Shown: positions 45,149-47,221 of the stretch, one piece after another
Layout of the letters: each line of letters starts with the position of its first letter
How positions within the stretch are numbered: position 1 is the stretch's first letter
Source: Candidatus Nitrosopumilus sp. SW
GTDB lineage: Archaea > Thermoproteota > Nitrososphaeria > Nitrososphaerales > Nitrosopumilaceae
Length of the DNA stretch: 64,000 nt
Assembly (NCBI RefSeq): GCF_006740685.1
Contig: NZ_CP035425.1
Location: forward strand, 163,687-227,686
Reading direction: 5' to 3'
The notes under the pieces: generated by a model
What the model was told of the DNA's origin: nothing
Databases searched by the model: none
What the model saw: the letters and a program-made list of their open reading frames with translations, nothing else
Translations under genes and position numbers: made by a program

Positions 45149-46015
45149 TTAGGAGGTTTTCTTGCTTGTTTTCTTGGTGGTTTTCTTGCTTGTTTTAGAA
45201 ACAGATGTTGTTTTTGAAGAAGATTTCTTTGATTCTCTTCCAAAAAAAGCCTTTCTTGCAAAGCAGAGATAAGTGGTATGACCTATTCCTTGAAAAGAAT
45301 GTCTTGTTTTTCCTTCACGAGCTTCAATTGTTCTTAAGATATGTTCGGTGGATTCAATATCAGTAAATTCATTCTCAACTAGAGCCATCGTTAATTTCTC
45401 TAATTGGTTCATTGTAGGGCATATTGCAAAGATAGAACCACTGCCTTTGAGCATTTTACGAACTTGTGGAATCACTACCCAGGGGTCACCAAGATCAATT
45501 AATGCCACATCCATATCTTCAAGGGGCATCTTCTTTGCAGTTTTCAAATCTTGGTTATGTTGTGTAACATATTTTGAGACTCCAGCCTTTTTGATATTTT
45601 TTTCAGCTATCTTCATGAAATTTTCATCAACATCAAAAGTGTAAACATGTCCACGAGGTTTTACAATACTTGCAATACATGAAGTAAGAGAACCACTACC
45701 AGTTCCTATTTCTAAAATTTTCTGACCGCTTTCAATTCCAGCCCTTGCAATAATGTAACCAATATCTTTTGGATAAACTATCTGTGTACCATGCTGTATT
45801 TTCATGACATAGTCATACATTGTTGGTTTGAGCAAATAGACATACTTGTCCTTGTTTGTGACAAGTCTAGAACCATATTCTTTTCCTATAGCATCAGAAT
45901 GTTTGATAACTCCAATATGAGTATGAAGAGAATCCTTTTTTGAGATTTTAACTAGCCATTTTTTTGAATGATTAAAGTAGAATAATACAGAAGAATTTTG
46001 TTTTATTTTATCCAT
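45149..46015 (-). CDS. trmI: tRNA (adenine-N1)-methyltransferase with lysine-rich tail
   Basis: SAM-dependent enzyme that makes m1A in tRNA. The 288-residue protein has the TrmI arrangement: N-terminal beta domain, TQIVYPKDIGYIIARAGI, and motif I ILEIGTGSGSLTSCIA. VALIDLGDPW and RTIEAREGKTRHSFQGIGHTTYL follow. It ends in a KTSKKTTKKTSKKTS tail, encoded by near-repeats of one oligonucleotide, which could strengthen RNA binding. The tail is longer than usual. Confidence 0.88.
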   Translation of the reverse strand: MDKIKQNSSVLFYFNHSKKWLVKISKKDSLHTHIGVIKHSDAIGKEYGSRLVTNKDKYVYLLKPTMYDYVMKIQHGTQIVYPKDIGYIIARAGIESGQKILEIGTGSGSLTSCIASIVKPRGHVYTFDVDENFMKIAEKNIKKAGVSKYVTQHNQDLKTAKKMPLEDMDVALIDLGDPWVVIPQVRKMLKGSGSIFAICPTMNQLEKLTMALVENEFTDIESTEHILRTIEAREGKTRHSFQGIGHTTYLCFARKAFFGRESKKSSSKTTSVSKTSKKTTKKTSKKTS

Positions 46016-46406: not shown

Positions 46407-46444
46407 TATACAAAGTTAGCAGCAGGTGAGAATCAAGATCATTG

Positions 46445-46452
46445 TTAAATAT
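46445..46452 (+). promoter_or_regulatory. TATA-like box for the RNA at 46472
   Basis: TTAAATAT lies 27 bases before the first base of the closing stem, almost the same spacing as the box at 23001 for element A. Confidence 0.5.
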
Positions 46453-46471
46453 CATTTTGACGTATAGTATG

Positions 46472-46574
46472 TAACGAGAAAACCTTTTTTCTGCGTCGTA
46501 GAATAAAGGTATGGAAAGCGTTTCATGTTAGGTCAACGTCCTAGGAAAAAATACGCTTTCCGTGTGTCTCGTTG
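46472..46574 (+). ncRNA. Candidate structured RNA, element B (three-way junction)
   Basis: The closing stem pairs TAACGAGA (46472-46479) with TCTCGTTG (46567-46574). A second stem ACCTTT/AAAGGT (46482-46487 with 46505-46510) carries TTCT/AGAA. A third, ATGGAAAGCGT with ACGCTTTCCGT (46511-46521 with 46553-46563), carries TAGG/CCTA. The second and third stems are adjacent with no gap, so they may stack. It shares blocks with element A at 23027 and ends 62 bases before the ATG at 46637. Confidence 0.55.
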
Positions 46575-46636
46575 TTTTAAAAAATTGTCATTTTAACACA
46601 AATAGTATTTTAGTAACTAAAAAAGAACAATATGAA

Positions 46637-46978
46637 ATGGCAGAATTAAAAGTTCAAGGTTCTGGAGGATATGTTATTGCAGACCTTACTGATGAACAAG
46701 CAAAAAAAGCAGATTTGGGAGTAGGAAAATTATTTCTAGCACCAATAGGAAAAATTGAAACTGAAAAAATGTTAAAACATTATTGTAATAATTGTGAAAC
46801 CGAATTTGATAATCCACCAAAAATTCAGTTAGAAGAAAGTCCTAATGAAGAAGTTGCAGATAATTTGATCTTAATTGAGAGAGGTCAATACGTCTGTGAA
46901 AAATGCAATGGAGTCATAGGAGAATACAGAGAATTCCAAAAGAAAGGCGAAGTTGGTAACGCAAGACCATCAGAATAA
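46637..46978 (+). CDS. Zinc-ribbon protein, 113 aa
   Basis: From the ATG at 46637 the protein has a basic N-terminal domain (LKVQGSGGYVIADLTDEQ), then a zinc ribbon with CNNC and CEKC about 46 residues apart (HYCNNCETEF and QYVCEKCNG). The frame is open further upstream, but that part lies in the RNA element's tail. Function unknown. Confidence 0.75.
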   Translation: MAELKVQGSGGYVIADLTDEQAKKADLGVGKLFLAPIGKIETEKMLKHYCNNCETEFDNPPKIQLEESPNEEVADNLILIERGQYVCEKCNGVIGEYREFQKKGEVGNARPSE

Positions 46979-47035
46979 TTGATAGGCGTACAAATAACCC
47001 GTATTCAATAAATACAGTAGTTTTTGATGATTAAC

Positions 47036-47173
47036 ATGGCAAATCAAAAATGCGTTTCTTGTGGCATAGGATTTTTCTCACCAACAGGTTCAGACAAATG
47101 TTCTAGATGTGCAGGAAAAGAAACAGAGGGTCATGGAGGACATGATTCCTGCGGTTGTGGACACAGCCATTAA
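47036..47173 (+). CDS. Zinc-binding micro-protein, 45 aa
   Basis: Has CVSC and CSRC knuckles in a rubredoxin-like layout, then a His/Cys-rich tail (HGGHDSCGCGHSH) that could hold extra metal. An AAATAACCC stretch about 45 bases upstream resembles the repeated promoter-like motif near 48211, 60931 and 61146. Confidence 0.7.
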   Translation: MANQKCVSCGIGFFSPTGSDKCSRCAGKETEGHGGHDSCGCGHSH

Positions 47174-47221
47174 CTCTTTTTTCTATAACATGCATATATT
47201 GCACATATTGTGAGTGGTTTT

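Follow-up and report, generated by a model that had tools for sequence, protein, structure and literature searches.

A three-way-junction RNA, probably transcribed from its own promoter, in Candidatus Nitrosopumilus sp. SW and related Nitrosopumilaceae

The locus and the predicted fold

The window, that is, the whole stretch of 64,000 nucleotides analysed here, comes from Candidatus Nitrosopumilus sp. SW. The element under study lies on its + strand between a divergent tRNA methyltransferase gene and a gene for a 113-aa zinc-ribbon-like protein, and related copies, called class I below, were found in many other genomes. Counts out of 76 aligned copies refer to alignment A4 after removal of two antisense echoes from its 78 rows; two of these copies (L053 and L080) are the same place, so that 75 are distinct. 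The features of the locus are as follows.

45149-46015, - strand: divergent upstream neighbour, a GCD14/TrmI-like tRNA methyltransferase (Pfam GCD14, E 3e-38)
46437-46464, + strand: putative dedicated promoter, GATCA-N3-TTAAATATnATTTTGACGTA, with its TATA box at 46445-46452
46472-46479 with 46567-46574, + strand: helix P1, 8 bp by RNA folding
46472-46479, + strand: 5' strand of P1, almost invariant in sequence; transcription start predicted at or beside 46472
46482-46510, + strand: the whole of helix P2, from folding and both-sided changes; its apical hairpin UCUGCGUCGUAGA is nearly invariant
46482-46487 with 46505-46510, + strand: outer part of P2, 6 bp by RNA folding
46489-46494 with 46498-46503, + strand: inner part of P2, 6 pairs, closed by a GUC triloop at 46495-46497
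46511-46521 with 46553-46563, + strand: helix P3, 11 bp including one U-G pair (46512/46562), with covariation
46524-46530, + strand: CAUGUUA on the 5' side of the P3 loop, invariant, each base being kept in 99-100% of the 76 copies
46567-46574, + strand: 3' strand of P1, from folding, almost invariant in sequence
46575-46578, + strand: short T-run, the likely 3' end of the transcript; 51 of the 76 copies have at least 4 T within 12 nt past P1
46603-46612, + strand: TATA-like box of the zinc-protein gene, outside the RNA and kept upstream of the gene in relatives
46637-46978, + strand: neighbouring gene for the 113-aa zinc-ribbon-like protein, with weak Pfam matches below the cut-off and no NCBIfam match
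47028-47174, + strand: small protein rich in Cys and His (MINMANQKCVSCGIGFFSP...CGCGHSH), which many relatives keep in the vicinity of the zinc gene

RNA folding of 46465-46580 gave a three-way junction at 46472-46574. The minimum free energy was -38.9 kcal/mol (z -5.83); 200 dinucleotide-shuffled versions averaged -20.6 +/- 3.2 kcal/mol, and none reached the stability of the element. Three helices at these positions had been proposed in an earlier note from the letters of the sequence, and folding reproduced them, including the contact of helices 2 and 3 at 46510/46511 and the single GU pair of the third helix. The note had described helix 2 as 6 base pairs plus 4; its outer 6 bp agreed with the fold, whereas the inner part comprised six pairs instead of four. 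P3 also contains an internal loop. A search of the window against Rfam 15 returned only a tRNA; the element reached the gathering score of no family, and matches to its region up to E 10 were those expected by chance. A protein-coding reading of the element was ruled out by stop codons and length variation: since frame-1 stops occur in 75 of the 76 copies and the copy lengths (93-107 nt) do not vary in steps of three, the element is not coding.

Selection on the structure was assessed in two alignments. In the first, the structure was taken from the window sequence alone and 28 homologues were aligned by sequence only with MAFFT. Standard pairs made up 91.6% of the pair cells compared with 42-50% when the partners were slid by 1-3 columns, and 32 both-sided changes were found against 10.4 in shuffles. 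The earlier note had named conserved sequence with disrupted pairing at homologous loci as evidence that would speak against the fold; the pairs were instead kept, with compensatory changes. The second alignment held 57 copies aligned by covariance model, a procedure that leans towards the structure. Both-sided changes were present there in all three helices and in 15 of the 29 pairs, amounting to 66 cells against a shuffle mean of 13.0, where cells count sequences and not evolutionary events. They affected 8 of the 13 modelled pairs of P2 and 5 of the 9 of P3, and in P1 a G-C pair was replaced by A-U in 2 of the 57 copies; counts for P1 are lower in alignment A2, in which a gap shifts part of this helix in 17 rows. 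Across the 76 aligned copies, the near-invariant stretches were P1, the tip of P2 and the CAUGUUA of the P3 loop. As the changes are compensatory, selection acts on the structure, and fold and covariation lend strong support to the view that the class I element is a functional structured RNA built around a three-way junction. Binding of a protein or ligand by the element, also put forward earlier, is plausible.

Promoter and genomic context

The 20-base core of the upstream motif was found at no more than 3 mismatches in 73 of the 76 aligned copies, and 3,800 shuffled upstream sequences yielded no such match. Among the 75 copies with the core at up to 5 mismatches, the TATA box (first base of TTAAATA) lies 27 nt before P1 in 66, and 27 nt is the spacing expected between an archaeal TATA box and the start site. 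The promoter 28-mer occurs a single time in the window's genome (1.5 Mb, one contig) at up to 3 mismatches. At its 3' end the element reads UCUCGUUG, followed by the T-run. From this conserved arrangement we infer that the upstream motif acts as a promoter and that the element is transcribed as a discrete RNA. A promoter of its own at fixed spacing would be expected of a stand-alone ncRNA, as would independence from any particular neighbour; the 76 aligned copies lie at many chromosomal sites and in many unrelated gene contexts.

The RNA lies 62 nt upstream of the zinc-protein gene on the same strand, and this order is kept in 7 of the 32 loci that encode the protein (L034, an acidobacterial match of 19 residues, is left out of this set). 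These facts would suit a cis-regulatory leader or riboswitch of the downstream gene. However, the other 25 of the 32 loci have no RNA, and only 9 of the 76 RNA copies precede the zinc gene while 67 adjoin other genes, which is not the consistent association with one gene class expected of such a leader. Nor would the RNA lie inside the 5' leader of the gene, whose own TATA-like box follows the RNA; 6 of the 7 loci that have the RNA and 14 of the 25 that lack it keep this box 33-36 nt upstream of the start codon. From the position of this box (46603-46612) the predicted start would be at about 46630, so the leader would be only about 7 nt long. As the RNA also carries its own promoter at fixed spacing, we regard the leader reading as highly improbable, and cis regulation of the zinc gene was ruled out on promoter and context evidence. 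The earlier suggestion thus held for a structured functional RNA, whereas its proposal of the 113-aa zinc protein as the target found no support in cis.

Another conserved stretch, GTGTTAGCTGG...AGCTCACATAAACTAGTTAATAC...AGTCTCCnnAGnAAAGGAGACT followed by a T-run, occupies this intergenic site in some relatives without the RNA (at approximately L007:3700-3850, L011:3820-3930 and L016:3800-3920). It folds with z -1.6 to -2.5, has no Rfam match and is possibly a different ncRNA.

Multiple copies at unrelated sites, up to four per genome, could also be left by a mobile element or virus whose arms form hairpins by chance. This origin is very unlikely, since the compensatory changes show structural selection and the conserved unit carries a promoter on one side only. 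Viral contigs had no match to the two patterns tried, and phage and plasmid collections gave none either, so that a viral or plasmid origin was rejected as far as two patterns and one query reach. Taken together, 46472-46574 is very probably a stand-alone RNA gene.

Distribution of class I and a second class of RNA

Searches with the element by blastn matched 61 of the 95 genomes of the genus. The covariance model R1, built from 16 copies, matched 84 of 250 Nitrosopumilaceae genomes, of which 66 belong to the element's own genus and the others to three further genera, with at most four copies per genome. By R1, 29 of the 95 genomes of the genus have no class I match, and 7 of these have class II (described below); class I is therefore not universally required. 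Model R2, from 57 copies, matched 93 of the 250 family genomes at E <= 0.05, a figure that includes some weak matches considered to be chance. Of 11 weak R2 matches, five (L138-L142, in genera g13 and g18) were inspected and have no promoter and no convincing fold; they were treated as chance and are still counted within the 93. When 400 genomes were drawn from the class, 81 gave a class I match and every one of these belongs to the family, although the wide searches were filtered more strictly and weak members may be missed. As far as searched, the RNA family to which class I belongs thus appears to be confined to the Nitrosopumilaceae.

One divergent class I copy, L137 (G005:C2:35154-35253), has a full promoter and poor pairing and is perhaps decaying.

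Among the weak R2 matches a related RNA surfaced, class II, which is likewise predicted to form a three-way junction and has a similar promoter. Examples among those found are as follows.

L149:1505-1632, - strand: class II RNA
L160:1501-1631, - strand: class II RNA
L157:1503-1632, - strand: class II RNA

P1 of class II is ACGAGGA/UCCUCGU; its P3 has the base GGAAAACA/UGUUUUCC and an inner hairpin, for example GAUGGAAGCAUC. It shares with class I the P1 sequence ACGAGG/CCUCGU, the P3 base GGAAAAC/GUUUUCC, the three-way junction and the promoter type, but differs in P2, which is usually longer, in the interior of P3 and in size, being usually 120-133 nt. The class I model is built without the promoter, and it recovered class II members with E values of 3e-5 to 4e-3. 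This comparison shows the two classes to be akin at the level of sequence and predicted fold. Both-sided changes in class II affected 7 of its 38 pairs, amounting to 20 cells where shuffles averaged 6.4, and its loci have no Rfam match.

At E <= 1e-17 the class II model R3, which includes 24 promoter bases, matched 41 of the 95 genomes of the genus and three from another genus; further genomes matched with weaker scores. At E <= 0.01 it matched 102 of the 250 family genomes, cross-hits to class I included, and among 400 genomes drawn from the class it gave no match outside the family. Combining R1 and R3, 34 of the 95 genomes of the genus have both classes; class I stands alone in 32 and class II in 7. 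The two classes lie near each other in four genomes (G053, G071, G044 and G009). In the window's genome no class II RNA was found at the thresholds used, R3 finding the class I element alone (1.3e-5).

Possible mode of action and comparison with known systems

The comparative evidence backs the predicted fold and the relationship to class II, shows that the element is independent of the gene next to it, and supports the promoter through its conservation; the models and the promoter do not bear on what the RNA does. On this basis the TATA promoter of the element would drive transcription from a start at P1, and the transcript would end at the short T-run about 105 nt downstream. The RNA would then fold into the three-way junction and act in trans. 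More speculatively, the constant chassis (P1, the base of P3 and the tip of P2) may be bound by a protein, and the invariant CAUGUUA loop may be the working surface that touches protein or RNA. We favour this account as a whole, that of a stand-alone gene with its own promoter whose three-way-junction RNA acts in trans and forms class I of the Nitrosopumilaceae, with some reserve; its protein-bound, trans-acting mechanism is a tentative proposal, somewhat less likely than its absence.

The seven near-invariant loop bases are what the seed of an antisense small RNA would look like, and CAUGUUA could then pair with mRNAs or rRNA. The complement UAACAUG is, however, absent from the 6.5-kb 16S-23S stretch, where the longest exact complement was 9 nt, within the range of shuffled sequences, so that this stretch gives no support to rRNA guiding or antisense pairing through the loop. 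In the window's genome the complementary 10-mer was not enriched, with 5 matches, one of them the RNA gene, versus 6 in the control; none of the remaining 4 sites is a convincing gene start. Relatives do not conserve the UAACAUG that lies ahead of the small zinc-ribbon gene, at about 47036. With this site unconserved and the 10-mer unenriched, start-codon antisense action through CAUGUUA was rejected, and conserved target complementarity was not found in the tests of this loop against the rRNA, the window's genome and the site near 47036. An antisense role is accordingly rather unlikely.

An H/ACA or C/D guide RNA is a still poorer candidate and hardly credible. The size of about 100 nt, the stem-loops, the internal loop in P3 and the archaeal host would fit one, but inspection of the alignment by eye revealed neither C/D boxes nor the conserved ACA/ANA box expected 3' of the stems, and the invariant loop lacks rRNA complementarity. 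The chance-level Rfam matches also argue against it. No K-turn or L7Ae site was recognised in the alignment by eye alone.

A broader extension of the protein-bound, trans-acting reading is conceivable but doubtful, namely a lineage-specific RNP system of the Nitrosopumilaceae with a common chassis and exchangeable arms, at least two RNA classes on one protein and a global role. If it were true, the chassis would consist of the terminal helix ACGAG(G)A/U(C)CUCGU, the helix 3 base GGAAAAC/GUUUUCC and the dedicated promoter, and at least two paralogous classes, often in the same cell, would share one protein. The role would be a global regulatory or assembly one, of a rank comparable to 6S or 7SK RNA and unrelated to either.

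Nitrosopumilaceae are among the most abundant marine archaea and key ammonia oxidisers, and almost nothing on their ncRNAs was found in the open-access papers searched. No description of the class I RNA was found there either. Strong conservation, a promoter of its own, the existence of paralogous classes and a covarying structure would make this RNA family a concrete and testable entry to the ncRNAs of these archaea. The alignments ease probing, pull-down and expression tests, and the covariance models allow existing metatranscriptomes to be read again.

Among archaeal regulatory sRNAs, sRNA154 of Methanosarcina mazei has its own conserved promoter and several stems and acts in trans. It differs from class I in lineage and sequence, and no target was found for class I. 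Class I would belong to a new RNA family, and marine archaeal ncRNAs of unknown function have a precedent in Tan1, as far as the description in PMC5069720 goes. According to that description, Tan1 is an abundant, structured ncRNA of marine group II euryarchaea, 229 nt long and of unknown function (PMC5069720). It is like class I in being a stand-alone structured ncRNA of uncultured marine archaea but differs in its length and in belonging to the Euryarchaeota, the two being compared by description (PMC5069720). Yfr103, a picocyanobacterial ncRNA of unknown function mentioned in the same source, is longer (290-328 nt) and cyanobacterial, and no relation to it is claimed; as described there, it resembles class I in having several paralogous copies per genome, a conserved secondary structure and a conserved upstream element (PMC5069720).
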